A stretch of DNA of 64,000 nucleotides from Rhodobacter sp. SGA-6-6 (GTDB taxonomy: Bacteria > Pseudomonadota > Alphaproteobacteria > Rhodobacterales > Rhodobacteraceae), in assembly GCF_011043545.1 (NCBI RefSeq), contig NZ_JAAKGP010000003.1, positions 186,001-250,000 of the forward strand. The letters are read 5' to 3'. The notes beneath the pieces were generated by a model, which worked only from the letters and a program-made list of their open reading frames with translations, did no database searches and was not told where the DNA came from. Below, piece after piece: positions 30,614-47,488 of this stretch (positions are counted from its first letter, which is position 1; each line of letters starts with the position of its first letter). The translations under genes were made by a program, and so were the position numbers.

Positions 30614-30661
30614 TTGACGGGTTTGGACCGTTCCAATATTCCGCGTTTGGAACGGTCCAAA
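30614..30661 (+). promoter_or_regulatory. Promoter between twin LacI-type operators
   Basis: The -35 TTGACG (30614-30619) and -10 TATTCC (30637-30642) have a 17-bp spacer. The operators TTGGACCGTTCCAA (30623-30636) and TTGGAACGGTCCAA (30647-30660) are each palindromic, and mirror images of each other. One fills the spacer and the other covers the start-site region. A bound repressor would block RNA polymerase. The LacI gene at 45244, last but one in the operon, is the obvious candidate. Confidence 0.78.
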
Positions 30662-30686
30662 TGGGCTGCCGCCATCGGGAGGGTGA

Positions 30687-31688
30687 ATGCGCTGGATATT
30701 GGCCGGGGCCAGCACGATTGCGGCCCAGCACATGATCGGGGCCTTTCGGGGCAATGGCGATACGGTGGCGCATGTGGTCTCCACCACCCCGGCGCGGGCG
30801 GCGGAATTCGCCGCCGAGCATGGCATCCCGAAGCATGGCAGCGATCTGGCCGCCGCGCTGGCCGACCCGGAGACGGATGCGGTCTACATCTCCTCGACCA
30901 ATGAAAAGCACCGGGCGCAGGCGCTGGCGGCCATCGCCGCCGGCAAGCATGTGCTCTGCGAGAAGCCGCTGGCGATGACGGTCGCCGAGGCTGCGGAGAT
31001 GGTCCGCGCGGCGCAGGCCGCGGGGGTGACCTTCGCCACCAACCACCACCTGCGCTGTTCCGGCAGCCACCGGGCGGTGCGGGCGCTGATCGCCGAAGGC
31101 CGGATCGGCCGGGTGCTGTCCCTCCGCATCTTCCACGCCGTCCACCTGCCGCCGCATCTTCAGGGCTGGCGGATCGACAACCCCGATGCGGGCGGCGGGG
31201 TGATCCCCGACATCACCGTCCACAACGCAGATGTAGCGCGGTTCCTGCTGGGCGAGGACCCGGCAAGCGTGGTGGCGCAGATGACCGCCTCGGGCATGGG
31301 GCAGGGGGTCGAGGATTCGGCGATGTCGGTCTGGACCATGCCCTCCGGCGCCATGGTCTTCGCCCATGAAAGCTTCACCCATCCCTTCGCCGGCTCGGGG
31401 CTGGAGGTGCATGGCACCGAGGGCTCGATCTTCGCGCGGGGGGTGATGACGCAGTTGCCGTTGGGCGAGATCGAGCTGGTGACGGCGAAGGGGCGCGAGG
31501 CGGTGCCGTTCCCGGACCACAACCTCTACGCCCAAGGCGTGCGGGACTTCTCCGAGGCCGTCGCCGGCCGCGGCCGCCCGGCGGCCGACGGTTGGGACGG
31601 CGTGGCCTCGCTGACCGTGGCGCTGGCGGTGCGCGAGGCGGCCCGGACCGGCGAAAGGCAGGCGGTGAGGATCGAGGGCAGGGCATGA
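30687..31688 (+). CDS. Gfo/Idh/MocA family oxidoreductase
   Basis: 333 aa. N-terminal NAD(P) Rossmann fold MRWILAGASTIAAQHMIGAF, with the family motif VLCEKPLAM (catalytic Lys) and a C-terminal α/β domain containing GGGVIPDITVHNADVARFLL. Family members oxidise or reduce sugars, inositols and related polyols. First gene of the 15-gene LacI-controlled operon, 26 bp after the right operator, and coupled by ATGA to the CoA-transferase gene. Specific substrate unknown. Confidence 0.9.
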   Translation: MRWILAGASTIAAQHMIGAFRGNGDTVAHVVSTTPARAAEFAAEHGIPKHGSDLAAALADPETDAVYISSTNEKHRAQALAAIAAGKHVLCEKPLAMTVAEAAEMVRAAQAAGVTFATNHHLRCSGSHRAVRALIAEGRIGRVLSLRIFHAVHLPPHLQGWRIDNPDAGGGVIPDITVHNADVARFLLGEDPASVVAQMTASGMGQGVEDSAMSVWTMPSGAMVFAHESFTHPFAGSGLEVHGTEGSIFARGVMTQLPLGEIELVTAKGREAVPFPDHNLYAQGVRDFSEAVAGRGRPAADGWDGVASLTVALAVREAARTGERQAVRIEGRA

Positions 31689-33256
31689 GCAAGCTGGTTT
31701 CCCCCGCCGAGGCGGTTGCGCGCATTGCCGACGGCGCCGTGGTCACGGTCTCGTCCTCCTCGGCGCTGGGCTGCCCCGATCTGGTGCTGAAGGCGCTGGG
31801 GCAGCGCTTCCGCGACGAGGGCCATCCGCGCGGGCTGACCACGCTGCACCCGATCGCGGCGGGCGACATGTATGGCGTCAAGGGCATCGACTGGATTGCA
31901 CAGGACGGGCTGCTGTCGCGGGTGCTGGCGGGGTCCTATCCCTCCGGCAGTTCCAACCTACCGATGCCGGAAATCTGGAAGATGATCGTCGAGGACCGGG
32001 TGGCCGCTTACAACGTCCCCTCCGGCATCATGTTCGACATGCACCGCGAGGCGGCGGCGAAACGGCCCGGGGTGCTGACCCGCGTCGGGTTGCAGACCTT
32101 CGTCGACCCGGTCCGCGAGGGCTGCGCGATGAACGCGAAGGCCGCAGAGCAGCCCATCGTCTCCCGCGTGGAGTTCGGCGGCGAGACCTGGCTGCACTTT
32201 CCCAATATCCAGCCCGATGTCTGCATCCTGCGGGCGACCACGGCGGACGAATGGGGCAACCTGACCTACGAACACGAGGGCGCCTATCTGGGCGGGCTGG
32301 AGCAAGCCATCGCCACCCGCACCAACGGCGGGCTGGTGATCGCGCAGGTCAAGCGGCTGACGGCGCGCGGGTCGCTGCGGCCGCATGACGTGCGGGTGCC
32401 GGGGCATCTGGTCGACCTGATCGTGCTGGACCCCGACCAGAAGCAGACCACCGAGACGCCGCATGACCCGGCGATCTCGGGCGAAGTGATCCGGCCGTGG
32501 GGCAGCTTCACGCTGGCCGAGCACGGCATCGAAAAGGTAATCGCCCGCCGCGCGGCGATGGAACTGCGCGCCGGGATGACCGCCAACCTGGGCTTCGGGA
32601 TTTCCGCCATGGTGCCCCGGGTGCTGCTGGAGGAGGGCCATCCGCAGGCCGTGACCTGGGCCATCGAGCAGGGCGCTGTCGGGGGAATGCCGCTGACAGG
32701 CTTCGCCTTCGGCTGCGCCTCCAACGCCGATGCCTATGTGCCCTCGCCGCAGCAGTTCATCTACTTCCAGGGCGCGGGCTTCGACATGTCCTTCCTGTCC
32801 TTCCTGGAGGTGGATGTGGAGGGGAACGTCAACGTCTCGAAACTGGGCAAGAAGCCCTATCTGACCGCGGGCTGCGGCGGCTTCGTTGACATCACCGCGC
32901 ACGCGAAGAAGATCGTCTTCTCGGGCTGGTTCGAGGCCGGAGCGCAGATCGATTTGACGGAATCCGGCATTTCGGTGCGTCAACCGGGGAAATTCACCAA
33001 GATGGTTGCACAAGTCGAACATGTCACCTTTTCCGGGCAGCGCGCGCGGGAACAGGGGCAGGAGGTGTTGTATATCTCCGAGCGCTGCGTGATGCGCCTC
33101 TCCGACAGGGGGCTTGTGGCGACCGAGATCATGCCCGGTATCGACCCGGCGCGGGACATCGTGGCAGCCTCGGAGGGCCGGGTGGCGGTGGCGGAGAATG
33201 CCGTGACCATGCCGCTGGCCCTGCTGGCCGAAGGGCCGATGGGATGGGCGCCATGA
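31685..33256 (+). CDS. Propionate/acetate CoA-transferase family protein
   Basis: 523 aa, a fused alpha+beta family I CoA-transferase (YdiF/Pct type). The alpha half starts MSKLVSPAEAVARIADGAVV; the beta half follows, with the catalytic Glu in TWAIEQGAVGGMPLTG (about E328), consistent with the family. It transfers CoA from an acyl-CoA to a free acid, activating it without ATP. Context suggests activation of an acid produced by the aldehyde dehydrogenase two genes downstream. Confidence 0.88.
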   Translation: MSKLVSPAEAVARIADGAVVTVSSSSALGCPDLVLKALGQRFRDEGHPRGLTTLHPIAAGDMYGVKGIDWIAQDGLLSRVLAGSYPSGSSNLPMPEIWKMIVEDRVAAYNVPSGIMFDMHREAAAKRPGVLTRVGLQTFVDPVREGCAMNAKAAEQPIVSRVEFGGETWLHFPNIQPDVCILRATTADEWGNLTYEHEGAYLGGLEQAIATRTNGGLVIAQVKRLTARGSLRPHDVRVPGHLVDLIVLDPDQKQTTETPHDPAISGEVIRPWGSFTLAEHGIEKVIARRAAMELRAGMTANLGFGISAMVPRVLLEEGHPQAVTWAIEQGAVGGMPLTGFAFGCASNADAYVPSPQQFIYFQGAGFDMSFLSFLEVDVEGNVNVSKLGKKPYLTAGCGGFVDITAHAKKIVFSGWFEAGAQIDLTESGISVRQPGKFTKMVAQVEHVTFSGQRAREQGQEVLYISERCVMRLSDRGLVATEIMPGIDPARDIVAASEGRVAVAENAVTMPLALLAEGPMGWAP

Positions 33257-34020
33257 GCGGGGTCAGGCTGCACATCCAGGGGCCGGTGGCCGAGCTGCGG
33301 CTGGACAACCCGGCCAAGCTGAACTGCTTCACTGTCGAGATGCTGGGCCAGCTGGCCCAGCATCTGGAGGTGGTGGAGGGCCGCCCGGAACTCCGCGCCA
33401 TGGTGCTGACGGCGGAGGGCGAGCGCGCCTTCTGCACCGGCGCCGACATCAACGCCTGGGGCGACCTGACCCCGGCGGAATTCGCCCGCAATTGGGTGCG
33501 CGGCGGCCATCGCATCTTCGACCGGCTGGCGCGGCTGGCGAAACCCACCATCGCGGCGCTGAACGGCCACGCCTTCGGCGGGGGCCTTGAGCTGGCGGCG
33601 GCCTGCGACCTGCGGGTGATGGCGCCGAAGGCCACCATCGCCTTGCCCGAGGCCGGGGTCGGCATCGTGCCGGGCTGGTCGGGGACGCAAAGGCTGGCCC
33701 GACTGATCCCCGAGCCGATGCTGAAGGAAATGGCGCTGTTCGGCCGCCGGATCGGCGCCGACCGCGCCCATGCCTGCGGCTTCGTCGCCGAGGTGGCCGA
33801 GGATGCCCGCGCCGCGGCCTTCGCCATTGCCGGGAACCTGACCGCCTTGTCGCCCCGTGCCGTCGAGATCGACAAGGCGATGATCCACGCCGCCCGCGGC
33901 GAGGATGCGGCGGCCATGGTCGAGGCGCTCGGCTCCGCCGCCATCGCCGCCTCGGCCGACCGCGACGAGGGCGTCGCCGCCTTCCGCGCAAAGCGCGCGC
34001 CAGAATTTCCGGGAACCTGA
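33253..34020 (+). CDS. Enoyl-CoA hydratase/isomerase family protein
   Basis: 255 aa crotonase-fold enzyme. Oxyanion-hole motifs ERAFCTGADINAWGD and NGHAFGGGLELAAACDL; active-site region ALPEAGVGIVPGWSGTQRLA with Glu and a Trp-Ser substitution near the second catalytic position. ATG 33253 (ATGA overlap) was chosen over the ATG three codons upstream. Probably hydrates or isomerises the CoA thioester made by the preceding transferase. Confidence 0.9.
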   Translation: MSGVRLHIQGPVAELRLDNPAKLNCFTVEMLGQLAQHLEVVEGRPELRAMVLTAEGERAFCTGADINAWGDLTPAEFARNWVRGGHRIFDRLARLAKPTIAALNGHAFGGGLELAAACDLRVMAPKATIALPEAGVGIVPGWSGTQRLARLIPEPMLKEMALFGRRIGADRAHACGFVAEVAEDARAAAFAIAGNLTALSPRAVEIDKAMIHAARGEDAAAMVEALGSAAIAASADRDEGVAAFRAKRAPEFPGT

Positions 34021-34022
34021 CG

Positions 34023-35597
34023 ATGACCGACCTGACCCTGATCCCCGCCACCGACGCCACGCTTCCCGAGGTCCGGGTGAATCGGCACTGGATCGGCGGC
34101 GAGTTCACCGCGTCCCGGGCTCGACCCGGGACCTCTGCTGGTGACGAGGTCCCGGGTCAGGCCCGGGACGGGGACGACTGGACTGAACGGCTCTCACCTT
34201 CCCACGGCGCCGTCGTCAGCCGCTCGGCCCGCGGCACGGCGGAAGATGCCGAGGCCGCCATCGCCGCGGCCCGGGCGGCCTTCGACGACGGGTGCTGGAG
34301 CCGGATACCGGCCAAGGCGCGGGCGGCGGTGCTCTTGAAGGTGGCCGATCTGATCGAGGCCAATGTCGAGCGGATGGCGCTGCTGGAGACGCTGGAATCC
34401 GGCAAGCCGATCAGCCAGTCGCGCGGCGAATGCGGCGGGGCCGCCGACCTCTGGCGCTATGCCGCGGCGCTGGCCCGCACCTCGCACGGCGACAGCCACA
34501 ACAGCTTGGGCGAGGACATGCTGGCGGTGGTGCTGAAAGAGCCGATCGGCGTCGTCTCCATCATCACGCCGTGGAATTTTCCGTTCTGGATTCTTGCCCA
34601 GAAATTGCCCTTCGCGCTGGCCGCCGGCTGCACCTGCGTGGTGAAGCCGTCCGAGATGACCCCTTCGACCACGGTCATGCTGGGGGAACTGCTGCAAGAG
34701 GCCGGGCTGCCGGCGGGCGTGGTGAACATCGTCCTCGGCCTCGGTCAGCCGGTCGGGGCGCTGATGGCCGCGCATCCGCAGGTGGACATGGTGACCTTCA
34801 CCGGATCGACCGGCGTCGGCCGCGGCATCGCGGCGGCGGCCTCCGGCACCTTGAAGAAGGTGGCGCTGGAACTGGGGGGCAAGAACCCGCAGGTGATCTT
34901 CCCCGACGCCGACCTCGACAGCGCCGCCGATGCCGTCACCTTCGGGGTCTATTTCAACGTCGGCCAATGCTGCAACTCCGGCAGCCGGATCATCGTGCAC
35001 GAGGACATTGCAGACGCCTTCACCGCCCGGGTGGTGGAGCTGTCGCGCAAGGTGGCCTTCGGCGACCCGCTGGACCCGCGCACGCAGGTCGGCGCCATCG
35101 TCACCCCCGCGCATCAGCAGAAGATCGACAGCTATGTGCAGGCCGCGCAGGCCGAAGGCGCCACCGTCGCCCTCGGCGGCGGCGCGCTCACCATTCCCGG
35201 CTTGAAGGGCGAGTTCTACCAGCCCACCATCGTCGCCAACGTCACCCCCGCCATGGCCATCGCGCGGGAGGAAGTCTTCGGCCCGGTGCTCTCGGTCCTG
35301 ACCTTCCGCACGCTTGACGAAGCGCTGGCCTTGGCGAACGATGCGTCCTACGGTCTTTCGGCCGGGGTATGGAGCGAGAACGTCCACACCTGCCTGGAAT
35401 TCGCGCGGCGGGCGCAGGCCGGCACGGTCTGGACCAACACCTGGATGGACGGATTCCCCGAGGTCACCTTCGGGGGCATGAAGCAATCGGGCCTGGGCCG
35501 CGAGATCGGCCGCTACGGGATGGAGGAATTCCTCGAGGTGAAGTCGCTGGTGATGCGGATCGGCCGCACCCGCGCGCCTTGGGTGAAAGCGACCTGA
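34023..35597 (+). CDS. Aldehyde dehydrogenase with an in-frame repeat-derived insert
   Basis: 524-aa NAD(P)-dependent aldehyde dehydrogenase. Motifs: PWNFPFWILAQKLPFALAAG, FTGSTGVGRGI, catalytic Glu in VALELGGKNPQV and catalytic Cys in FNVGQCCNSGSR. Residues about 31-50 (SRARPGTSAGDEVPGQARDG) are encoded by a 60-bp palindromic repeat and separate VNRHWIGGEF from ERLSPSHGAVV, which are adjacent in ordinary family members. The insert keeps the frame and lies before the conserved core. Probably oxidises an aldehyde formed by a GMC enzyme of the operon. Confidence 0.92.
   Translation: MTDLTLIPATDATLPEVRVNRHWIGGEFTASRARPGTSAGDEVPGQARDGDDWTERLSPSHGAVVSRSARGTAEDAEAAIAAARAAFDDGCWSRIPAKARAAVLLKVADLIEANVERMALLETLESGKPISQSRGECGGAADLWRYAAALARTSHGDSHNSLGEDMLAVVLKEPIGVVSIITPWNFPFWILAQKLPFALAAGCTCVVKPSEMTPSTTVMLGELLQEAGLPAGVVNIVLGLGQPVGALMAAHPQVDMVTFTGSTGVGRGIAAAASGTLKKVALELGGKNPQVIFPDADLDSAADAVTFGVYFNVGQCCNSGSRIIVHEDIADAFTARVVELSRKVAFGDPLDPRTQVGAIVTPAHQQKIDSYVQAAQAEGATVALGGGALTIPGLKGEFYQPTIVANVTPAMAIAREEVFGPVLSVLTFRTLDEALALANDASYGLSAGVWSENVHTCLEFARRAQAGTVWTNTWMDGFPEVTFGGMKQSGLGREIGRYGMEEFLEVKSLVMRIGRTRAPWVKAT
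34111..34170. repeat. Palindromic element inserted in frame in the aldehyde dehydrogenase gene
   Basis: 60-bp imperfect palindrome. Arms 34111-34135 and 34146-34170 match in 23 of 25 positions around a 10-bp spacer. It shares GTCCCGGG…GACCCGGGACCTC with the intergenic element at 19894-19977. Its length is a multiple of three and it contains no stop in the gene's frame. Confidence 0.85.
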
Positions 35598-35649
35598 CCC
35601 CGCGAGGGGATAGGCAAAAACGACGACGCAACGATGGGAGGAAAACCGG

Positions 35650-36906
35650 ATGCGTGGTTACTTCAAGGCGAAGATGACGGTTGCGGCGGCGCTGCTGGCC
35701 TCGACGGCCGGGATGGCGGCGGCCGAGGACGTGGAAGTCCTGCACTGGTGGACCAGCGGCGGCGAGGCCGCGGCGCTGAACGTGCTGAAGGAGGATCTGG
35801 CCGGGAAGGGCATCGGCTGGGTCGACATGCCGGTGGCGGGCGGCGGCGGCGAGGCGGCGATGACCGCGCTGCGCGCCCGCGTCACCGCCGGCGACCCGCC
35901 GACCGCGGTGCAGATGCTGGGCTTCGACATCCAGGACTGGGCCAAGGAAGGCGCGCTCGGCAACCTCGACGCCGTGGCCCAGGCCGAGGGCTGGGATGCG
36001 GTGATCCCGGCGGCGCTGCAGGCCTTCTCGAAATACGACGGCCACTGGATCGCGGCGCCGGTCAACGTCCATTCCACCAACTGGGTCTGGATCAACAAGG
36101 CCGCGCTGGACGCCACCGGCCTGGGCGAGCCGACCAACTTCGACGAGCTGGTCGCGGTGCTGGACAAGATGAAGGAAGCCGGGATCACCCCGATCGCCCA
36201 TGGCGGCCAGGCCTGGCAGGACGCGACGATCTTCGACGCGCTGGTGCTGGCGGAGGGGACCGACTTCTACAAGGCCGCCTTCGTCGACCTCGACCCGGCC
36301 GCCTTGGGCGGCGAGAAGATGGCCGCGGCCTTCGACAAGCTGATCAAGCTGCGCAGCTACTTCGACGACAACTTCTCGGGCCGCGACTGGAACCTGGCCT
36401 CGGCCATGGTGATCAACGGCGAGGCCGGGATGCAGTTCATGGGCGACTGGGCCAAGGGCGAGTTCCTGAAGGCCGGCAAGGTGCCGGGCACCGATTTCGT
36501 CTGCATCCGCTTCCCGGGCACCCAGGGGGCGGTGACCTTCAACTCCGACCAGTTCGCCATGTTCAACGTGCAGGGCGAGGGCAAGCAGGCGGCGCAGGCC
36601 GCCATGGCCTCGGCCATCGAGAGCCCGGCCTTCCAGTCGGCCTTCAACGTGGTCAAGGGCTCGGTCCCGGCGCGGACGGACGTGCCGGACACCGACTTCG
36701 ACGATTGCGGCAAGAAGGGCATGAAGGACCTGGCCGAGGCCAATACCGCCGGCACCCTGTTCGGGTCGATGGCGCATGGCCATGGCGCCCCGGCGGCGGT
36801 GAAGAACGCCACCTATGACGTGATCACCGCGGTGGTGAACGGCGAATACAGCGACGGCGCCTCGGCGGCCACCGCGCTGGCCGAAGCCGTGGCTGCGGCG
36901 CAATAA
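35650..36906 (+). CDS. ABC sugar transporter substrate-binding protein
   Basis: 418 aa periplasmic binding protein of the CUT1 class. Signal peptide about residues 1-25 (…[18 protein letters not shown]). Family motif [38 protein letters not shown] and [14 protein letters not shown]-terminal Cys in [12 protein letters not shown]. Ligand unknown, but the class binds mono- or oligosaccharides and glycerophosphodiesters. Followed by three hairpins and then both permeases. Shine-Dalgarno GGGAGGAAAA. Confidence 0.92.
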
Positions 36907-36914
36907 GCCGACCT

Positions 36915-36991
36915 CCCCGGGGGCGGGACCTTCGCCCCCGGGGCTGCAAATTCCCTGGAAGGAATTTGCGAAAAATCCTCGAAGATTTTTC
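36915..36991 (+). other. Three consecutive intercistronic hairpins
   Basis: Hairpin 1 is CCCCGGGGGCG/CGCCCCCGGGG (36915-36943), hairpin 2 GCAAATTCC/GGAATTTGC (36946-36969) and hairpin 3 GAAAAATC/GATTTTTC (36970-36991). All stems are perfect and lie between the binding-protein and permease genes. Likely mRNA 3'-end protection or partial termination that keeps binding-protein levels above permease levels. Confidence 0.65.
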
Positions 36992-37021
36992 CGCCACCCG
37001 CAGGGAAGGGGAGGACCAGCC

Positions 37022-37918
37022 ATGGCTGAGCCGGCACAGGCCGATTTCCGCACGCGACTCCAGGACTGGCTGCCGAAGATCGTGCTGGCGCCGTCCTTCG
37101 CGGTGACGCTCTTGTTCGTCTACGGCTTCATCCTCTTCACCATCGTGCTCTCGTTCACCGGCTCGAAGATGCTGCCGAAGTTCGATGCCTGGGTGGGGCT
37201 GGCCAACTATCAGAGGCTGTTCAGCCTGCCGGAGTGGAAGATCGCCCTGGTCAACATCGCCATCTTCGCCAGCCTCTACATCGTGATCTGCACCCTGATC
37301 GGGCTGATGCTGGCGATCTTCCTGGATCAGAAGATCCGGGGCGAGGGCGCGCTGCGGCCGATCTATCTGTATCCGATGGCGCTGAGCTTCATCGTCACCG
37401 GCACCGCCTGGAAATGGTTTCTCGATCCCGGCATCGGGCTTCAGAACGTCATGCACCAATGGGGGTGGGAGAGCTTCCAGTTCACCTGGATCAAGTCGAA
37501 CACCATGGCGATCTACACCATCGTCATCGCCGCGGTCTGGCAGACATCGGGCTTCGTGATGGCGATGTTTCTGGCCGGGCTGCGCGGCATCGACAATGAA
37601 ATCCTCAAGGCCGCGCAGATCGACGGCGCGTCGAACTGGCAGCTGTATCGGCGGATCGTCATCCCGCTTCTGCGGCCGGCCTTCCTGTCGGCCTTCGTCA
37701 TCCTCAGCCACCTGGCGATCAAGTCCTACGACCTGGTGATCGCGCTGACCAACGGCGGGCCGGGGCGGGCGACGGCGATGCCGGCGACCTTCATGTATTC
37801 CTACACCTTCACCCGCAACGAGATGGGGGTGGGCGCCTCCTCGGCGGTGATCATGCTGATGACCATCGCCGCGATCATGGTGCCCTACCTCTATGCCGAA
37901 CTGAAGGAGAAGAAGTGA
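37022..37918 (+). CDS. ABC sugar transporter permease 1
   Basis: 298-aa CUT1 permease with six TM helices. EAA motif GIDNEILKAAQIDGASNWQL. Hydrophobic segment SFAVTLLFVYGFILFTIVLS near the N-terminus. Forms the channel with the next gene; stop and start codons overlap (GTGATG). Confidence 0.93.
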   Translation: MAEPAQADFRTRLQDWLPKIVLAPSFAVTLLFVYGFILFTIVLSFTGSKMLPKFDAWVGLANYQRLFSLPEWKIALVNIAIFASLYIVICTLIGLMLAIFLDQKIRGEGALRPIYLYPMALSFIVTGTAWKWFLDPGIGLQNVMHQWGWESFQFTWIKSNTMAIYTIVIAAVWQTSGFVMAMFLAGLRGIDNEILKAAQIDGASNWQLYRRIVIPLLRPAFLSAFVILSHLAIKSYDLVIALTNGGPGRATAMPATFMYSYTFTRNEMGVGASSAVIMLMTIAAIMVPYLYAELKEKK

Positions 37919-38808
37919 TGGCCTCTTCAGTTTCGGGCGCGACCCAGGACAGCGCCGTCTCCACCGGCAACGTCACCCGCGTCTTCATCTATCTGGTGCT
38001 GATCCTCTTCGCACTGTTCTACCTGCTGCCGCTTTACGTCATGGCGGTGAACTCGGTGAAGCCGCTGGCCGAGATCACCGGCGGCAACATGATGGCGCTG
38101 CCGAGGGACTGGACGCTGGAGCCCTGGGGGGCGGCCTGGTCCACGGCGCAGATCGGCGTCTCGCCCACCGGGCTGAAGCCCTATTTCCTGAACTCGATCC
38201 TGATGGTGGTGCCGGCAGTGGCGATCTCCACCGTGGTCGGTGCGCTGAACGGCTACATCCTGACCAAATGGCGCTTCCGCGGCGACACCTGGGTCTTCGG
38301 GCTGATGCTGTTCTCCTGCTTCATCCCGTTCCAGATCGTGCTGATCCCGATGGCGCGCGTGCTGGGGCTGCTGGGGCTGGCCGGGTCGGTCCCGGGGCTG
38401 ATCCTGGTGCATGTGGTCTACGGCATCGGCTTCACCACGCTTTACTTCCGCAACTACTACGCCGCCTTCCCGACCGAGCTGATCCGGGCGGCGCAGATCG
38501 ACGGCGCCGGCTTCTTCCGCATCTTCTGGCGCATCCTGCTGCCGGTCTCCGGCCCCATCGCCGTGGTCAGCGTGATCTGGCAGTTCACCAACATCTGGAA
38601 CGACTTCCTGTTCGGCGTCTCCTTCGGCGGCACCTCGCAGCCGGTGACGGCGGCGCTGAACAACCTGGTGCAGTCCTCGACCGGGGTGAAGGAATACAAC
38701 GTCCATTTCGCCGGCGCGATCCTGGCCGCGCTGCCCACCCTCTTCGTCTATATCGTCGCCGGCCGCTATTTCGTGCGCGGGCTGATGGCTGGCTCTGTGA
38801 AAGGCTGA
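37918..38808 (+). CDS. ABC sugar transporter permease 2
   Basis: 296-aa CUT1 permease. EAA motif FPTELIRAAQIDGAGFFRIF, followed by WRILLPVSGPIAVVSVIWQF. Long periplasmic loop after the first helix. ATG 37918 chosen; a GTG one codon upstream is possible. Three bp before the ATPase gene. Confidence 0.93.
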   Translation: MASSVSGATQDSAVSTGNVTRVFIYLVLILFALFYLLPLYVMAVNSVKPLAEITGGNMMALPRDWTLEPWGAAWSTAQIGVSPTGLKPYFLNSILMVVPAVAISTVVGALNGYILTKWRFRGDTWVFGLMLFSCFIPFQIVLIPMARVLGLLGLAGSVPGLILVHVVYGIGFTTLYFRNYYAAFPTELIRAAQIDGAGFFRIFWRILLPVSGPIAVVSVIWQFTNIWNDFLFGVSFGGTSQPVTAALNNLVQSSTGVKEYNVHFAGAILAALPTLFVYIVAGRYFVRGLMAGSVKG

Positions 38809-38811
38809 TCC

Positions 38812-39924: not shown

Positions 39925-41408
39925 TGCAGCCCGACATCCTGATCATCGGTTCCGGCATGGGCGGGGCCACCCTGGCGGCATCGCTGGCGCCCTCGGGCCG
40001 CCGGATCGTGATCCTGGAACGCGGCGAGCGCTTGCAGGACTGCCCCGAGGCGCGCGACCCGGCCGCCATCTTCCGCCGCGCCTTCTTCAAGCCGAAGGAG
40101 GTGTGGAAGGATGCCCAAGGCCGCAGCTTCGAGCCGGGCAACTACGCCTTCGTCGGCGGCAACACCAAGTTCTACGGTGCGGTCCTGCTGCGCTACCGGG
40201 CCGAGGATTTCCGTCCCCTGCGTCATATCGAGGGCACCACCCCGGGCTGGCCGATCCCCTACGAGGCGCTGGAGCCGTATTACTCGCGGGCCGAAACCCT
40301 GTATCGCGTCCGCGGCGATGCCGGGTCGGGCGACCCGACCGAGCCGCCGCATTCCGCGCCCTATCCGTTTGCGCCGATCCCCGACGAGCCCGACATCGCC
40401 GCCCTGCGCGCGGCCTTCGCGGCGCAGGGCCTGCACCCCGTGCCGCTGCCGATCGGGCTGGACATCGACGCCTGGCTGAAACGCGCGCCCACCACCTGGG
40501 ATGCCTTCCCCTGCACCACCGGCGCCAAGTCCGACGCCGAAAGCTGCGGCCTGGCCGAGGCCTTGAAGCACCCCAACGTCACCCTGCTGACCGGGGCGAA
40601 GGTCACCCGCCTGCTGGCCGAGGGCCGCAAGGTGACCGGGGTGGAGGTCGAACGGAACGGGACGCGCGAGGTGATGACCGCGCCGCTGGTCTGCCTGTCG
40701 GCCGGGGCGGTGATGTCCTCGGCGCTGCTGCTGGCCTCGGCCAATGCCGAGCATCCGAACGGACTGGCGAACGGCTCGGATCAGGTCGGCCGCAACTTCA
40801 TGAACCACAACCTCACCGGGATGGTGGCCTGGAACCCGTTCCGGCGGAACCGCACGGTCTACGAGAAGACCATCCAGGTCAACGACTGGTATCTGACCGG
40901 CGGACCGGAGGGCGAGCCCTTGGGCAATATCCAGATGCTGGGCCGGATCACCGGGCCGATCCTGGCCGGCGAGGCCGGGCTGCCGCTCTGGCTGGCGCGC
41001 CACATCGCCGACCATTCCATCCACATCATGGCGATGTCCGAGGACCTGCCCGACCCCGACTCCCGCGTCCTCTGGCGCGACGGCGTGGTGCTGGACGGAC
41101 GCCGCACCAACACCCGCGCGCATGACCTGCTGGTCGCGCGGCTGAAGCGGGCGATGAAGCGGGCGGGCTGGCCCGTCGTGATGGCGCGGGGCTTCCCGAA
41201 GTCGAAGCCCAGCCACCAATGCGGCACCGCGCGGATGGGGGCGGACCCGGAGACCTCGGTGGTGGATGCGAACCTGAAGGCGCATGACCTCGACAACCTC
41301 TATATCGTCGATGCCTCGGTGCTGCCGACCTCGGCCGCGGTGAACCCCTCGCTGACCATCGCCGCCTTGGCGCTGCGGGCCGGCGCGCATATCGGCGGGC
41401 TGCAATGA
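39924..41408 (+). CDS. GMC family FAD oxidoreductase 1
   Basis: 494 aa. N-terminal FAD motif DILIIGSGMGGATLAASLA with ILERGE, then GGNTKFYGAVLLRYRAEDFR. The C-terminal catalytic region SHQCGTARMGADP … AAVNPSLTIAALALR supplies the His/Asn pair. It is the branch resembling fructose/gluconate dehydrogenase large subunits and pyranose oxidases rather than choline dehydrogenase. No small-subunit or cytochrome c partner lies adjacent. Probably oxidises a sugar or cyclitol hydroxyl. Confidence 0.87.
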   Translation: MQPDILIIGSGMGGATLAASLAPSGRRIVILERGERLQDCPEARDPAAIFRRAFFKPKEVWKDAQGRSFEPGNYAFVGGNTKFYGAVLLRYRAEDFRPLRHIEGTTPGWPIPYEALEPYYSRAETLYRVRGDAGSGDPTEPPHSAPYPFAPIPDEPDIAALRAAFAAQGLHPVPLPIGLDIDAWLKRAPTTWDAFPCTTGAKSDAESCGLAEALKHPNVTLLTGAKVTRLLAEGRKVTGVEVERNGTREVMTAPLVCLSAGAVMSSALLLASANAEHPNGLANGSDQVGRNFMNHNLTGMVAWNPFRRNRTVYEKTIQVNDWYLTGGPEGEPLGNIQMLGRITGPILAGEAGLPLWLARHIADHSIHIMAMSEDLPDPDSRVLWRDGVVLDGRRTNTRAHDLLVARLKRAMKRAGWPVVMARGFPKSKPSHQCGTARMGADPETSVVDANLKAHDLDNLYIVDASVLPTSAAVNPSLTIAALALRAGAHIGGLQ

Positions 41409-42163
41409 GCGCCCCCGTCGCCCTGATCACCGGCGGCCAGCAGGGCATCGGCCTTGCCATCGCCCTGGCCCTGCAAGGCGCAGGCTTCCGCATCGCCGTG
41501 GCCTCCTTGCCGCCCGCCGAGGCCCCCGCGGTGCGCGAGGGGATGTCGCGGTTGCAGGACGCCAGCTACTACCCCCACGATGTGGCCGATGCCGGTGCCG
41601 CGCCGGGGCTGCTGGAGCGGGTGGAGGCCGACCTCGGCCCCGTCGCCTGCTTCGTCTCCAACGCCGGGGTCCCGGCCAAGGTGCGCGGCGACCTCCTCGA
41701 CCTGACGCCCGAGTCCTGGGACCATGTGCTGGCCGTCAACCTGCGCGGTGCCTTCTTCCTGGCGCAGGAGGTGGCCTGCCGCATGGTCCGCCGGCAATCG
41801 CCGCATTACCGCTCGCTGAGTTTCGTCACCTCGGTCTCGGCCGAGATGGCCAGCGTGGAGCGCGGCGAATATTGCGTGTCGAAATCCGGCGCCTCGATGG
41901 TGGTGAAGCTGTTCGCGCTGCGGCTGGCGCCGCTGAACATCGGCGTCTTCGAGCTGCGCCCCGGCATCATCGCCACCGAGATGACTGCCGGGGTGCGCGA
42001 CAAATACACCGCCCGGATCGAGGCCGGCCTCGTCCCCGCCCACCGCTGGGGCGAGGCGGAGGACATCGGCCGCGCCGTGGTGCCGCTGGCCACCGGACGG
42101 ATGGCTTTCGCCACCGGCATGGTGGTGCCGCTCGACGGCGGACTTTCCATCGCAAGGCTGTAG
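41405..42163 (+). CDS. SDR family NAD(P)-dependent oxidoreductase
   Basis: 252 aa. Cofactor motif ALITGGQQGIGLAIALAL, active site NAG (SNAGVPAKVRG), Ser in FVTSVSAEMASVERGEYCVS and catalytic YCVSKSG (Tyr-x3-Lys). C-terminal GMVVPLDGGLSI is typical. Three-ketoacyl reductase-like architecture; substrate probably a polyol or keto sugar given its place between two GMC genes. ATGA overlap with the upstream gene. Confidence 0.9.
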   Translation: MSAPVALITGGQQGIGLAIALALQGAGFRIAVASLPPAEAPAVREGMSRLQDASYYPHDVADAGAAPGLLERVEADLGPVACFVSNAGVPAKVRGDLLDLTPESWDHVLAVNLRGAFFLAQEVACRMVRRQSPHYRSLSFVTSVSAEMASVERGEYCVSKSGASMVVKLFALRLAPLNIGVFELRPGIIATEMTAGVRDKYTARIEAGLVPAHRWGEAEDIGRAVVPLATGRMAFATGMVVPLDGGLSIARL

Positions 42164-42166
42164 GAT

Positions 42167-43756
42167 ATGGAAAAAGGCTACGATTTCATCATCATCGGCG
42201 GCGGCTCCGCCGGCGCCGTCCTTGCCGCGCGGCTGTCCGAGGACCCTTCCGCCCGCGTCCTGCTGCTGGAGGCCGGGGGCCGCGACAGCCACCCGTTCTA
42301 TCACCTGCCCGCCGGTTTCGCGAAGATGACCAAGGGCATCGGCTCCTGGGGCTGGCAGACCGTGCCGCAGCGCCACATGAACGGCATGGTGATCCGCTAT
42401 ACGCAAGCCAGGGTGATCGGCGGCGGCTCCTCGATCAATGCGCAGATCTACACCCGCGGCAATGCGCTGGACTACGACGAATGGAGGCAACTCGGCTGCC
42501 CCGGCTGGTCCTACGAGGACGTGCTGCCGTATTTCCGCAAGGCGGAGGACAACGACACCTTCGACAACCGCTTCCACGGCAAGGGCGGGCCTTTGGGCGT
42601 GTCCCAGCCCCGTGCGCCGCTGCCGATCTGCGAGGCCTGGTTTGCCGCCGCCGCCCAGATGGGCATCCCCCGCAACAGGGACATGGCGGGCGAGGTGCAG
42701 GAGGGCGTCGGCTACTACCAGCTGACGCAAAGGAACTACCGCCGGTCCTCGGCATCCATCGCCTATCTGCGCCCCGCGCGCGGGCGGGCGAACCTGGAAG
42801 TGCGCACCGGGGTGCAGGTGCTGCGGATCGTGGTCGAGAAGGGCAGGGCGGTCGGGGTGGAGACGCCGGAGGGCATCCTGCGGGCTTCGGCGGAGGTGAT
42901 CCTGTCCTCCGGCGCTATCGGCAGCCCGCGGCTGCTGCAACTGTCGGGCATCGGCCCGGCCGACAACCTGCGCGGCTTGGGCATCCCGGTGGTGCTGGAC
43001 CAGCCGCAGGTGGGGGCGAACCTTCAGGACCATCTGGACCTGTTCGTCATCGCCGAATGCACCGGCCCGCATACCTATGACCGTTACGCGAAACTGCACT
43101 GGTCGGCGCTGGCCGGACTGCAATACCTGCTGACGCGGCGGGGGCCGGTGGCTTCCAGCCTCTTCGAGACCGGGGGGTTCTGGTATGCCGACCCGGACGC
43201 GCGCAGCCCCGACATCCAGTTCCACCTCGGCCTCGGCTCGGGGATCGAGGCCGGGGTGGCGGCGATGCCGCAGGGGGGCGTCACGCTGAACTCGGCCTAT
43301 CTGCGGCCGCGGTCGCGCGGGACGGTGCGGCTGGCCAGCGCCGACCCGCTGGCGCCGCCGCTGATCGACCCGAACTACTGGGAGGACCCGCATGACCGCG
43401 AGATGTCGATCCGCGGGCTGAAGCTGGCCCGCGAGATGATGGCGCAGGAGGCGCTGAAGCCCTTCGTGCTGGCCGAGCGGCTGCCGGGGCCGGAGGTGCG
43501 GACCGATCAGGACTATTTCGACTATGCCTGCAAGCATTCCAAGACCGACCATCACCCCGCCGGCACCTGCCGGATGGGCAGCGACCCTCAGGCGGTGCTG
43601 GACCCGGAGCTGCGGTTGAACGGGCTGTCCGGCCTGCGCGTCGTCGATGCCTCGGTGATGCCGCGGGTGGTCTCGGCCAATACCAACGCCACCACGATCA
43701 TGATCGCCGAGAAGGCCGCCGACATGATCAAGGCTGCTCATGGAGGCCGGGCATGA
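42167..43756 (+). CDS. GMC family FAD oxidoreductase 2 (choline dehydrogenase-like)
   Basis: 529 aa. FAD motif FIIIGGGSAGAVLAARLSE, GMC signature 1 ARVIGGGSSINAQIYTRGNA, signature 2 GAIGSPRLLQLSGIGPA, and C-terminal HHPAGTCRMG … NTNATTIMIAEKAADMIK with catalytic His/Asn. Related to BetA/AlkJ-type alcohol dehydrogenases; likely converts an alcohol to an aldehyde that the operon's aldehyde dehydrogenase can oxidise. Substrate unknown; clearly distinct from the GMC protein two genes upstream. Confidence 0.9.
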   Translation: MEKGYDFIIIGGGSAGAVLAARLSEDPSARVLLLEAGGRDSHPFYHLPAGFAKMTKGIGSWGWQTVPQRHMNGMVIRYTQARVIGGGSSINAQIYTRGNALDYDEWRQLGCPGWSYEDVLPYFRKAEDNDTFDNRFHGKGGPLGVSQPRAPLPICEAWFAAAAQMGIPRNRDMAGEVQEGVGYYQLTQRNYRRSSASIAYLRPARGRANLEVRTGVQVLRIVVEKGRAVGVETPEGILRASAEVILSSGAIGSPRLLQLSGIGPADNLRGLGIPVVLDQPQVGANLQDHLDLFVIAECTGPHTYDRYAKLHWSALAGLQYLLTRRGPVASSLFETGGFWYADPDARSPDIQFHLGLGSGIEAGVAAMPQGGVTLNSAYLRPRSRGTVRLASADPLAPPLIDPNYWEDPHDREMSIRGLKLAREMMAQEALKPFVLAERLPGPEVRTDQDYFDYACKHSKTDHHPAGTCRMGSDPQAVLDPELRLNGLSGLRVVDASVMPRVVSANTNATTIMIAEKAADMIKAAHGGRA

Positions 43757-44061
43757 TCCGCCATATCGTCCTTGTCCGCTTCCGCCCCGAGGTAAGCGAA
43801 GCGGAGATCGCCGCCATCTTCGCCGACCTCGCTGCGATCAGGGCCAGGCTGCCCGGGGTGATCGACATCCGCGCCGGCCGCAGCGAGAGCCCCGAGCGGA
43901 TCGAGCGCGGCTATATGCACGGCTTCACCGTCGATTTCACCGACTGGGCGGCGCTGGCCGCCTATCAGGACCATCCCGACCACCGCCGTGTCGGTGCCGC
44001 CCTCGTCGCCGCCGCCGAGGGCGGGATCGACGGTATCCTCGTCTTCGACCTTGCCTGCTGA
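43753..44061 (+). CDS. Dabb (stress-responsive A/B barrel) domain protein
   Basis: 102 aa. Ferredoxin-like barrel with MIRHIVLVRFRPEVSEAEI at the start and the Dabb hallmark YQDHPDHRRV. Related proteins include dimeric cyclases such as olivetolic acid cyclase and stress proteins. Catalytic or accessory function in the operon is unknown. Overlaps the GMC2 stop by 4 nt. Confidence 0.88.
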   Translation: MIRHIVLVRFRPEVSEAEIAAIFADLAAIRARLPGVIDIRAGRSESPERIERGYMHGFTVDFTDWAALAAYQDHPDHRRVGAALVAAAEGGIDGILVFDLAC

Positions 44062-44070
44062 GGGCCCGCC

Positions 44071-45240
44071 ATGCTGATCCTGCCCACCGAAGATTTCCGA
44101 CTGGAACCTTACCGCCTGACCGGCACGCCGCTTGTCCCCCGTGCGCCCCGGATCGCGCTGACCCGCACTGCCTTCGCCGCCGCCCATGTGGTCAGCGATG
44201 CCCTGCGCGAGCGCAGCCCCTGGGATGGCCGCCCGGCGGTGGACTGGGAGGGGACGCTCTCCTTCCGCCACTGGCTCTGGGATCAGGGCCTCGAGCTGGC
44301 CGAGGCGATGGACACCGCGCAGCGCGGCATGGGGGTGGACTGGGAGACGGCGCTGGAGCTGGTGCAGCGCACCATGGACGAGGCCAAGGCGCATCCGCTG
44401 CGGCCCCGGGTCTGCGCCGGGGCGGGGACGGACCACAAGGCGCTGGCCGAGTTGACCACCGTGGAGGCGATCATCGCCGCCTACGAGACGCAGGCCGAGG
44501 CGATCGAGGCCGCAGGCGGCCAGTTGATCCTGATGGCGACCCGGGCGCTGCCGGCCATCGGCGCCACGCCCGAGGTCTACCGGCAGGTCTACCGCCGCCT
44601 GATCGACGGCGCGGCGCAGCCGGTGATCCTGCACTGGCTGGGCGAGATGTTCGACCCGGCGCTGGCGGGCTACTGGGGGACCGCCGATGTCGCCGAAGCC
44701 TCGGATTTCGTGCTGTCGCTGATCGCCGAGAACCCGGCCAGGGTGGACGGCATCAAGATTTCCCTGCTGGATCAGGCGCATGAGGAGGCCTTCCGCGCCC
44801 GCCTGCCCGCAGGCGTCCGCCTCTATACCGGCGACGACTTCAACTATGCCGCGCTGATCGAGGGCGACGGGACGCACCATTCCCACGCCTTGCTGGGCGC
44901 CTTCGCCGCCATCGCCCCCGCAGCGGCGCAGGCGCTGGAGGCGCTGGCGCAGGGCGACCGGGACGCCTATCACCGCCTGCTGGCCCCTACCGTGCCGCTG
45001 AGCCGCGAGATCTTCCGCGCGCCGACCCGGTTCTACAAGGCCGGCATCGCCTTCCTTTCCTGGCTCAACGGGTTGCAACCCGGCTTCGTGATGCCCGCCG
45101 GTTTCCAGTCCTCGCGCGGGATCGTCCATTACGCGCAGGTCTACCGGCTGGCCGATGCCGCCGGGGTGCTGATCCGCCCCGATCTGGCCGAGGCGCGGAT
45201 GCGGAGCCTCCTGCACCTCTACGGCATCGACCAGGGCTAG
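44071..45240 (+). CDS. DUF993 family protein (dihydrodipicolinate synthase-like)
   Basis: 389 aa. DUF993 pattern: RIALTRTAFAAAHVVSDALR near the start, DWEGTLSFRHWLWDQGLELA, VCAGAGTDHKAL, and INPARVDGIKISLLDQAHEE-like DGIKISLLDQAHEEAFRARL with a Lys placed as in DHDPS/NAL-type TIM-barrel aldolases. The family has no assigned reaction that I know of. Retro-aldol cleavage of a keto-sugar acid would fit a terminal glycerate kinase; that is inference. Confidence 0.85.
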   Translation: MLILPTEDFRLEPYRLTGTPLVPRAPRIALTRTAFAAAHVVSDALRERSPWDGRPAVDWEGTLSFRHWLWDQGLELAEAMDTAQRGMGVDWETALELVQRTMDEAKAHPLRPRVCAGAGTDHKALAELTTVEAIIAAYETQAEAIEAAGGQLILMATRALPAIGATPEVYRQVYRRLIDGAAQPVILHWLGEMFDPALAGYWGTADVAEASDFVLSLIAENPARVDGIKISLLDQAHEEAFRARLPAGVRLYTGDDFNYAALIEGDGTHHSHALLGAFAAIAPAAAQALEALAQGDRDAYHRLLAPTVPLSREIFRAPTRFYKAGIAFLSWLNGLQPGFVMPAGFQSSRGIVHYAQVYRLADAAGVLIRPDLAEARMRSLLHLYGIDQG

Positions 45241-45243
45241 GCG

Positions 45244-46245
45244 ATGGAACGCCGCCCCACCATCGTCGATGTCGCAAGGGCCGCGGGGGTGTCGAAATCG
45301 ACCGTCTCGCTGGTCTTGCAGAACTCGCCGCTGGTGCGGGCCGAGACCCGGGCCGATGTCCGCCGGGCGATGGCCGAGATCGGCTATGTCTACAACCGCG
45401 CCGCCGCCACGCTGCGGTCGGCCAATGCCGGGCTGATCGGGCTGGTGATCAACGACCTGCGCAACCCGTTCTTCACCGAATTCGCCACCTCGGTGCAGAT
45501 GGCGCTGTCGGCCCGCGGCTATGCCACGGTGATGGCGAACACCGACGAGGACCCCGCCCTGCAGGCGCAGGTGGTGGGGGCGATGATCGAGCACGGCGTC
45601 TCGGCGCTGATCCTGTCCTCGGCCTATGGCGAGGTGGCGCCGACATTCGACCAGATCGCCCGCGCCGGCATCCCCGCGCTGCAGGTGCTGCGCCGGGCGC
45701 ATCCCGACACCGACCGCTTTCCCTTCGCCGCCCCGGACGGCCCCCGTGGCGGCCGGCTGGCGACCGAGCACCTGCTGGAGCGCGGCGCGAAGCGGATCGC
45801 CTTCGTCGGCGGGCTGCCGGGCCGGTCGGTGACCGAGGCGCGGCTGGCGGGCCATCTGGAGGCGCTGGCGGAGGCCGGCCTGCCGCCGCTGGTGCTGGAG
45901 GGCCGTCCGGTGCGCGCCTTCGGCCGCGAGGCCGCCGCCCGGCTGGCAGCCGACCACCCCGAGGTCGACGGGGTGCTGTGCTTCAACGACCTGGTGGCGC
46001 TCGGCCTGTTGTCGGGCTGCGCCGAGATCGGCCGCAGGGTCGGGCCGGACCTGAAGGTGGTGGGCTTCGACGACATCGAGGAATGCGCGCAGGTCTACCC
46101 GACGCTGACCTCGATCCGCAGCCATATTGCCGGTTTCGGACAGCAGATGGCGGGAACGGTGCTGGCCTGGCTGGAAGAGGGTGTTAGACCTGCGCCGGTA
46201 ACCTCGTCCGCCGTGGAGCTGATCGCCCGTGCCTCGACCCTTTGA
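45244..46245 (+). CDS. LacI family transcriptional regulator
   Basis: 333 aa. N-terminal HTH TIVDVARAAGVSKSTVSLVL with hinge helix AAATLRSANAG, then a periplasmic-binding-protein-like sugar sensor (GLIGLVINDLRNPFFTEFAT … VVGFDDIEECAQVYPTLTSI). Three bp after DUF993 and overlapping the glycerate kinase by 17 nt, so it is part of the operon. It probably binds the two palindromic operators at 30623-30660. Confidence 0.93.
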   Translation: MERRPTIVDVARAAGVSKSTVSLVLQNSPLVRAETRADVRRAMAEIGYVYNRAAATLRSANAGLIGLVINDLRNPFFTEFATSVQMALSARGYATVMANTDEDPALQAQVVGAMIEHGVSALILSSAYGEVAPTFDQIARAGIPALQVLRRAHPDTDRFPFAAPDGPRGGRLATEHLLERGAKRIAFVGGLPGRSVTEARLAGHLEALAEAGLPPLVLEGRPVRAFGREAAARLAADHPEVDGVLCFNDLVALGLLSGCAEIGRRVGPDLKVVGFDDIEECAQVYPTLTSIRSHIAGFGQQMAGTVLAWLEEGVRPAPVTSSAVELIARASTL

Positions 46246-47488
46246 CCGCCCCGCCTTCCTGCGCCGCCTGTTCGACCGGGCGGTGGAAGTGGCCGATCCG
46301 ATGCGGTCGCTGGCCGCGCATCTGCCGGAGAAGCCGCCGGGCCGGGTGGTGGTGATCGGCGCCGGCAAGGCCAGCGCGCGGATGGCCGAGGCGGTGGAAT
46401 CCGCCTGGGGGCCCTGCGAGGGGCTGGTGATCACCCGCTACGGCTATGGCCGGCCGACCCGAGGGGTAGAGATCGCGCTGGCCGCCCATCCGGTGCCGGA
46501 TGCGGCGGGGGCCGAGGCGACGGCGCGGATGCTGGAGCTGGTTTCCGGCCTCGGCGAGGGCGATTTCGTGCTGGCGCTGGTCTCCGGCGGCGCCTCGGCG
46601 CTGCTGTGCGCGCCGGCCGAGGGAGTGAGCCTGGCCGAGAAACAGGCGGTGAATGCCGCCCTTCTGGCCTCGGGCGCGCCGATCTCGGCGATGAATACCC
46701 TGCGCAAGCATCTCAGCCGGGTGAAGGGCGGGCAACTGGCCGCCGCCGCCTGGCCGGCGAAGATGCTGGCGCTGATCATCTCCGACGTGCCGGGCGACGA
46801 TCCGGCCTTCATCGGCTCCGGCCCCACCGTGGGCGATGCGACCACCCCGGCGGAGGCCGAGGCCATCCTCGACCGCTGGCAGATCGGCGTGCCGGCCCAT
46901 GTCCGCGCGGCGCTTGGCCGCTCGGGCGTAGTGGCGCCCAGCGATCCTCGGCTGGCGCGGGTGGAGAACCGCATCTTCGCCGCCCCGGCGCAATCGCTGG
47001 AGGCTGCGGCAGAAATCGCCCGGGCCGAGGGGGTGGAGGTGCGCAGCTTGGGCGATGCGCTGGAGGGCGAGGCGCGCGAGGTGGCCGCGGCGCAGGCAAG
47101 GATGGCGCTGGAGATCGCCGCGGCCCGCAGGCCCGGCGATGCGCCGGTGCTGCTGCTGTCGGGCGGGGAGCTGACCGTGACCCGCCGCGGCGACGGCGTG
47201 GGCGGGCCGAACGCCGAGTTCTGCCTGGCCCTGGCGCTGGCGCTGGAGGGCGCGGCGGGCATCCATGCGCTGGCCTGCGACACCGACGGGGTGGACGGCG
47301 CGGCCGAGGTGGCGGGGGCGGTGGTGACGCCCGACACGCTGGCGCTGGCCCGGGCCAAGGGGCTGGACCCGGCGGCGGCGCTGGCGGCCAACGATGCGCA
47401 TGGCTTCTTCGGCAGGATCGGCGGGCAGGTGGTGACCGGGCCGACGCTGACCAATGTCAACGATTTCCGGGCGGTGCTGATCGGCTGA
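46229..47488 (+). CDS. Glycerate 2-kinase / hydroxypyruvate reductase family (DUF4147)
   Basis: 419 aa. MOFRL/DUF4147 architecture: VVVIGAGKASARMAEAVE, LVSGGASALLCAPAEGVSLA, MNTLRKHLSRVKGGQLA, SDVPGDDPAFIGSGPT, and C-terminal NAEFCLALALAL … DTDGVDGAAEVAGA. Converts glycerate to 2-phosphoglycerate in known members. Starts with GTG inside the LacI gene. As the last gene of the operon it suggests that the substrate carbon enters glycolysis as glycerate. Confidence 0.9.
   Translation: MPRPFDRPAFLRRLFDRAVEVADPMRSLAAHLPEKPPGRVVVIGAGKASARMAEAVESAWGPCEGLVITRYGYGRPTRGVEIALAAHPVPDAAGAEATARMLELVSGLGEGDFVLALVSGGASALLCAPAEGVSLAEKQAVNAALLASGAPISAMNTLRKHLSRVKGGQLAAAAWPAKMLALIISDVPGDDPAFIGSGPTVGDATTPAEAEAILDRWQIGVPAHVRAALGRSGVVAPSDPRLARVENRIFAAPAQSLEAAAEIARAEGVEVRSLGDALEGEAREVAAAQARMALEIAAARRPGDAPVLLLSGGELTVTRRGDGVGGPNAEFCLALALALEGAAGIHALACDTDGVDGAAEVAGAVVTPDTLALARAKGLDPAAALAANDAHGFFGRIGGQVVTGPTLTNVNDFRAVLIG

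Follow-up and report, generated by a model that had tools for sequence, protein, structure and literature searches.

What does the fifteen-gene operon at positions 30687-47488 of the window degrade? The window is a 64,000-nucleotide stretch of the genome of Rhodobacter sp. SGA-6-6 (contig NZ_JAAKGP010000003.1, positions 186,001 to 250,000), in which the original prediction had described fifteen same-strand genes forming one LacI-controlled catabolic unit of unknown substrate, perhaps a sugar or cyclitol conjugate or polyol. All 15 open reading frames are indeed found on the + strand, with the families as named, and a single LacI-controlled unit for a sugar-like compound fits what we see. The sugar-like part of the substrate proposal stands, but the proposal is too loose given a reductase of the 1,5-anhydro-D-fructose reductase (AFR) family and a glucose-type binding protein, and no conjugate-splitting gene was seen among the 15 operon genes. 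Because an AFR-family reductase occurs with a binding protein that falls among glucose binders, a 1,5-anhydrohexose or anhydrohexitol is indicated, and we judge 1,5-anhydro sugars to be a somewhat probable substrate class. The fuller statement, that the operon serves the import and aerobic breakdown of 1,5-anhydrohexose compounds, namely 1,5-anhydro-D-fructose (AF), 1,5-anhydro-D-glucitol (AG) and/or 1,5-anhydro-D-mannitol (AM), is evenly poised between right and wrong. Substrate identity and the whole order of reactions are what we infer from observations that the data do back: AFR membership, the glucose-type binding protein, the operator pattern and catalytic-type residues.

The first gene (30687..31688, + strand) encodes the reductase, a Gfo/Idh protein. 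Its product scores 356.9 bits against the AFR structure 2glx and 343.1 bits against 4koa, with the next family at 99.1 bits, and it falls under the NCBIfam cut-offs both for IolG (135.7; cut-off 355) and for levoglucosan dehydrogenase (99.7; cut-off 650). By sequence comparison it is a member of the AFR family, clearly separate from GFOR, inositol dehydrogenase and levoglucosan dehydrogenase. Residues K93, D175 and H179, which we take to be the counterparts of the catalytic K94, D176 and H180 of 2glx, are invariant in 25/25 aligned rows (all residue counts are over aligned rows, with partial rows and rows containing stops or X excluded). Both structures are of Sinorhizobium AFR, and the Gfo/Idh protein of the S. 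meliloti Ak57 operon is nearly identical to crystallised 4koa over 333 residues; the operon is therefore the genomic home of AFR. The Sinorhizobium literature consulted treats the reductase and sketches a route to mannose but leaves the other operon genes aside. Reduction of AF to AM in Rhizobiaceae is described in excerpts of a 2025 review, according to which no oxidative pathway for 1,5-anhydroglucitol has yet been described (PMC12441222); in the excerpted text of PMC11046441, AF comes up solely as ligand in a structure of glycogen synthase. AFR, the first enzyme, is known, and we found no description of the pathway past it in the open-access literature searched.

The importer points to the same kind of substrate. 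The CUT1 solute-binding protein (35650..36906, + strand; Pfam) belongs to a glucose-binding clade: its closest solved relative is 4r2b, the Oant_3817 sugar transporter with bound glucose, at 72% identity, a value within the operon binding proteins' own range of 57-86% (rows listed, every third of 86), and the next solved relatives are glucose/galactose-binding proteins of Pseudomonas putida, Pelagibacter and Thermus. AG is glucose minus the C1 hydroxyl, so a binding protein of glucose type fits it. Two CUT1 permeases (37022..37918 and 37915..38808) and a UgpC-type ABC ATPase (38812..39924), all on the + strand, complete the importer; these three were identified by tblastn to annotated homologues, with no library scan. 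No relevant paper on Oant_3817/4R2B came up in the open-access literature searched. A faint hint comes from S. meliloti smc04396, reported in excerpts of PMC4960864 to be induced by dextrin, if it is the binding-protein gene, to which we map it by gene order only. An equally weak one is that SMc04390-04392, likewise mapped from tag to gene by order only, are among the proteins lowered without PhaR in the excerpted text of PMC12542648. In four related loci (L005, L006, L011, L013) a second binding-protein-like stretch, 48-50% identical, lies between permease 2 and the ATPase gene. As a source of the substrate, the cell's own supply of AF by a GH31 glucan lyase is unlikely: the window genome has no GH31 match, in a search that matches 6/14 control genomes.

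If these genes serve one pathway they should travel together, and to a large extent they do. DUF993 has 134 relatives in the genome contigs searched; the 80 best loci were kept and, by record title, come mostly from Rhodobacterales and Hyphomicrobiales. Counting same-strand genes solely in those of the 80 loci whose DNA extends far enough, DUF993 is accompanied by the flavoprotein GMC1 in 71/72, the SDR in 72/72, the second flavoprotein GMC2 in 74/74 and LacI in 76/76, and by the binding protein in 66/69, each permease in 68/71 and the ATPase in 68/72. The count for aldehyde dehydrogenase (ALDH), 34/68, is little informative: the start of the gene, roughly 10 kb upstream, falls at the limit of what was fetched. 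Gene order is kept while GMC1 identity drops to about 50%. All 15 genes occur on annotated plasmid records of Peteryoungia, Rhizobium daejeonense and Microvirga, and the S. meliloti Ak57 record holds 14 of them, with no Dabb gene annotated; in Rhizobium daejeonense, Microvirga and S. meliloti Ak57 the DUF993 gene is divergent from the remaining genes. A gene set conserved in other Rhodobacterales, which according to the original prediction would support one pathway, is therefore present there, and also in Hyphomicrobiales and one genome outside the class.

AFR itself follows this gene set closely. In a sample of 40 genomes (40 of the 80 loci, hand-picked from L004-L055 with short contigs mostly omitted), AFR was found in 40/40; in 35 its gene shares the strand of DUF993 and precedes it by 11.6-15.2 kb, with contig identity inferred from coordinates, and in the remaining five the DUF993 locus is near a contig end. 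Approached from the other side, AFR was detected at E 1e-60 in 17/398 Pseudomonadota genomes, the window genome counted. The 16 other genomes hold 17 AFR regions, of which 13 carry the operon and one (L109) is cut after three genes by a contig end. DUF993 was found at E 1e-60 in 14 of these 16 genomes; in G339 it is located away from the operon, and at that threshold there is none in G004 and G059, two relatives of the same class whose AFR genes (L117, L118) stand alone. A further region, L124:1-12561, combines an AFR paralogue with an importer, GMC2, ALDH, an SBD_N/NBD_C-type kinase, which we take to be DUF1537, a class II aldolase and an HbpS-like protein; judged by its genes, it would be another sugar-acid cluster.

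A shared operator ties the units together. The original prediction placed the start of the feature at 30614; the first start codon is at 30687, and 30614-30686 is upstream DNA with two LacI-type operators, TTGGACCGTTCCAA at 30623-30636 and TTGGAACGGTCCAA at 30647-30660, within a perfect 15-bp inverted repeat (30622-30661). The two copies of TTGGANCGNTCCAA directly 5' of the first gene have no further exact match in the 64 kb, and none of 40 simulated windows contains one. If two mismatches are permitted, the window holds no more sites than chance predicts (2 against 2.05), and the case for the operator therefore rests on exactness, position and conservation. An operator of this kind, palindromic with a central CG and with at most one mismatch, precedes 21/21 homologous units whose AFR start lies in the fetched DNA; these loci, counted without the overlapping loci L091-L107, include several close relatives and so are not independent. 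In 11 of them it stands before AFR. The other 10 have a LacI gene at the head of the AFR unit; there the operator precedes this gene and on its other side faces a divergent DUF993 gene. At the three AFR loci outside the operon (L117, L118, L124) no operator was found with at most one mismatch. In 20 loci the operator is additionally found before GMC1, an arrangement that suggests, from sequence, units that are split yet share one regulator; L002, L032 and L056 have a single detected site, which does not fall in the 450 bp upstream of any gene tested.

The regulator is presumably the LacI-family protein encoded within the operon (45244..46245, + strand; NCBIfam). In S. meliloti its counterpart would be SMc04401, an assignment drawn from gene numbering and order only; a regulator with that tag and a binding motif was used in a network study whose excerpted text gives no substrate or pathway (PMC4560400), and a term search of the main text of PMC4052901 did not return the tag. 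In 28 loci (cluster c0; among them L002, L016 and L043) the opposite strand carries a further LacI-family gene just 5' of the binding-protein gene, which suggests separate control of the importer there.

How might such an operon degrade an anhydro sugar? The exact route drawn here is tentative, and we think it rather doubtful that all of it is right; we infer every step after AFR, as well as the GMC1 step before it. GMC1 (39924..41408, + strand), closest to FAD glucose and fructose dehydrogenases and with a C-terminus that resembles pyranose oxidase (H431 and N474 kept 90/90), would oxidize AG at C2 to AF, which AFR would reduce to AM, setting the manno configuration. GMC2 (42167..43756, + strand) is a choline-dehydrogenase-like flavoprotein, closest to chloramphenicol-inactivating oxidoreductase and choline dehydrogenase, with choline dehydrogenase models under cut-off (H463 and N507 kept 95/95). 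Together with ALDH (34023..35597, + strand; Pfam and NCBIfam; N185, E283 and C317 kept 52/52), it would convert C6 of AM to an acid, 1,5-anhydro-D-mannuronate, identical with 2,6-anhydro-D-mannonate since mannitol is C2-symmetric. The class I CoA-transferase (31685..33256, + strand), FadX-like with the FadX model under cut-off and with a catalytic-type Glu328 kept 24/24, would turn this acid into a thioester, from which the crotonase (33253..34020, + strand), an enoyl-CoA hydratase matched in Pfam and NCBIfam, would remove the beta-hydroxyl to leave an enol ether. Hydration of the enol ether at the ether carbon would open the ring and give 2-keto-3-deoxy-D-gluconate (KDG), free or as CoA ester, the CoA being passed on to the next acid. 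The crotonase has the hydratase-type pair E113 and E133, kept in 26/28 and 28/28 rows and both present in 26/26 operon copies; the two rows with Gly in place of E113 are crotonases outside the operon (L117, L118).

DUF993 would split KDG(-CoA) into pyruvate and D-glyceraldehyde, which would be oxidized to D-glycerate and phosphorylated by the glycerate 2-kinase (46229..47488, + strand, GTG start) to 2-phosphoglycerate, an ending in keeping with the earlier proposal of DUF993 as a C-C cleaving enzyme and of a glycerate-level product. The kinase matches only the Thermoproteus and Thermoplasma models of NCBIfam, both under cut-off, the best being GlyK_Thmprot (200 bits against a cut-off of 550). 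Fischer bookkeeping for four D-configured 1,5-anhydrohexitols lends the scheme some internal logic: only AM leads to KDG and D-glyceraldehyde, the other three giving L-glyceraldehyde, which would explain a manno-forming AFR beside a glycerate kinase. Of the two proteins outside the scheme, the SDR (41405..42163, + strand; NCBIfam PRK12745 above cut-off; Y156 and K160 kept 92/92) might reduce a 5-keto intermediate by analogy with KduD, and the Dabb protein (43753..44061, + strand; Pfam) might aid hydration or tautomerization.

The predicted aldolase, DUF993 (44071..45240, + strand), has one close solved relative, 4dnh (SMc04132, uncharacterized), after which comes the DHDPS family. A structural model (pLDDT 81.7) gives DHDPS entries next after 4dnh among the matches listed, at target TM-scores of 0.70-0.83, and by this model the protein has a DHDPS-type TIM-barrel fold. 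K229, H188, T82 and R85 are kept 93/93. In the model Lys229 is on strand 6 (225-230) and His188 on strand 5, the sites of the DHDPS Lys and Tyr; T82 follows strand 2, in a poorly modelled stretch (pLDDT below 50 at 82-84). From the modelled fold and these positions, DUF993 probably works like DHDPS or KDG aldolase. 'DUF993' is named in no paper of the open-access literature searched. One DUF993 match, G274:C40:257948-259096, contains an in-frame TGA. Another is part of a sister cluster on the Janthinobacterium lividum EIF2 plasmid (L089), together with CoA-transferase, acyl-CoA dehydrogenase, enoyl-CoA hydratase, ALDH, GMC2, a xylose-isomerase-like protein, two aldo/keto reductases, a different importer (CUT2-like by gene sizes), glycerate kinase and an HbpS-like protein; neither AFR nor GMC1 was found in the 31 kb fetched, and the cluster perhaps represents a related pathway for another substrate.

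Several observations weigh against the degradation of 1,5-anhydro sugars by this route. Glycerate kinase is present in just 44/74 DUF993 loci and Dabb in 67/79, and the SDR and Dabb proteins are left without a step. DUF993 has neither the DHDPS Tyr nor the GTTGE motif, carrying H188 and MDTAQR-type residues instead (93/93), and for this reason it is not filed as DHDPS or KDG aldolase; the equivalence of these motifs was judged by eye against the window genome's DHDPS, hhalign having yielded no usable alignment. Linkage is imperfect as well: L113 is an operon without detectable ALDH or DUF993, L117 and L118 carry AFR without the operon, and the AFR paralogue of L124, 47-48% identical, sits in a different cluster. 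In S. morelense AM is said to be converted to D-mannose via a P450-like C1 hydroxylase not yet identified (excerpts of PMC12441222), and the operon has no P450-like hydroxylase linked to AFR among the proteins scanned with Pfam and NCBIfam; an unlinked enzyme from a different family may carry out this step. The glucose-type binding protein, for its part, could mean plain glucose. Finally, the window AFR is only about 53% identical to S. meliloti AFR, and its specificity may for that reason have shifted.

This last point opens the way to an unlikely alternative, in which AFR has drifted in the Rhodobacterales and the operon applies a similar logic to the degradation of a different cyclic ether or polyol. 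The Janthinobacterium cluster, which keeps CoA-transferase, enoyl-CoA hydratase, ALDH, GMC2 and glycerate kinase around another importer and without AFR or GMC1 in its 31 kb, shows a similar set in such a setting. Against drift stand the invariance of K93, D175 and H179 and the fact that the window operon and the S. meliloti operon of 4koa share operator, gene set and binding-protein family.

A second alternative takes the binding protein at its word: the substrate would be glucose or glucosone, GMC1 would be a pyranose 2-dehydrogenase, and AFR would reduce the osone to mannose. Relatives of the binding protein do bind glucose, and GMC1 is nearest to sugar dehydrogenases and ends like a pyranose oxidase. 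Kuhn et al. are said to have found in 2006 that AFR reduces osones as well. A free C1 aldehyde would, however, render C6 oxidation, CoA activation and the crotonase superfluous, and there is no ordinary sugar kinase among the 15 genes, and we consider this explanation improbable. About as improbable is the published outline itself, in which AM made from AF is C1-hydroxylated to mannose by an unlinked oxygenase, the other operon genes having a side function or a different substrate: the conversion in S. morelense (PMC12441222, in excerpt) and P450 genes elsewhere in the window genome and in 15/16 other AFR genomes speak for it, but no oxygenase or mannose kinase is found among the operon proteins scanned (Pfam, NCBIfam), G262 has AFR and the operon (L112) with no P450 match, and the core neighbors are co-conserved with AFR. 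PEG-type, lignin/phenylpropanoid, DMSP, glycerol-glycoside and inositol pathways were considered and set aside; none of them is known to unite AFR with both a binding protein of glucose type and a glycerate kinase.

Degradation of 1,5-anhydro sugars by the proposed route can also be placed beside known systems. The non-phosphorylative Entner-Doudoroff pathway ends with a DHDPS-fold KDG aldolase, glyceraldehyde dehydrogenase and glycerate 2-kinase. The operon resembles it in having the DHDPS-fold DUF993, ALDH and glycerate 2-kinase, and differs in that DUF993 is a family of its own and that KDG would arise via a CoA thioester and ring opening. The anaerobic gut pathways for AG and AM, in the excerpts of PMC12441222, concern the same substrate class and use a PTS and the glycyl-radical enzymes YbiW/PflD, whereas the 15 operon genes include no PTS or glycyl radical enzyme and point to ABC import, flavin/NAD oxidation and CoA chemistry. 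It is a tentative suggestion, and one more apt to fail than to hold, that the operon encodes the first aerobic oxygenase-free AG/AF pathway, with the ether opened via a CoA thioester and crotonase and with DUF993 as a new KDG or KDG-CoA aldolase. 1,5-Anhydroglucitol occurs widely, in the body as well as in food, and in two inherited diseases its 6-phosphate is at the root of the neutropenia. If the reading is right, the operon would supply candidate genes for the undescribed oxidative 1,5-anhydroglucitol pathway, link orphan families (DUF993, Dabb and the two GMC proteins) with a single class of substrate, and give a reason why AFR forms a mannitol-type rather than a glucitol-type product.

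As for the architecture of the operon, the near-contiguous junctions reported earlier measure as stated: of 14, seven are overlaps of 1-17 bp and five are gaps of 2-9 bp, and the two wide gaps, of 52 bp (35598-35649) and 115 bp (36907-37021), flank the binding-protein gene. In the wider gap, 3' of that gene, lies a GC-rich perfect hairpin of 11 bp (36915..36943, + strand) that possibly stabilizes the mRNA. A sigma-70 promoter scan found 0 sites against 1.1 expected, and the number of terminator-like sites, 9, was close to the background of 6.4. The Pfam matches above cut-off are Gfo/Idh, CoA_trans, ECH_1, Aldedh, SBP_bac_1, GMC (twice), SDR, Dabb and DUF993 (553 bits); the names of LacI and glycerate kinase come from NCBIfam models scoring under curated cut-offs.

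Some of the other loci hold further detail. In Roseibium/Labrenzia, LacI or glycerate kinase is followed by a gene for a HAD-family phosphatase (L084:5930-6517; cluster c8), which might point to a phosphorylated by-product. The record CP059262.1 (L075), titled Exiguobacterium profundum, contains an alphaproteobacterial operon at 54-94% identity and is, given that content, probably mislabeled. A second label may be wrong too: the 3.7 Mb 'pSymB' of S. meliloti Ak57 (L087, CP090106.1) carries ndvB, which we take to be a chromosomal gene in S. meliloti.

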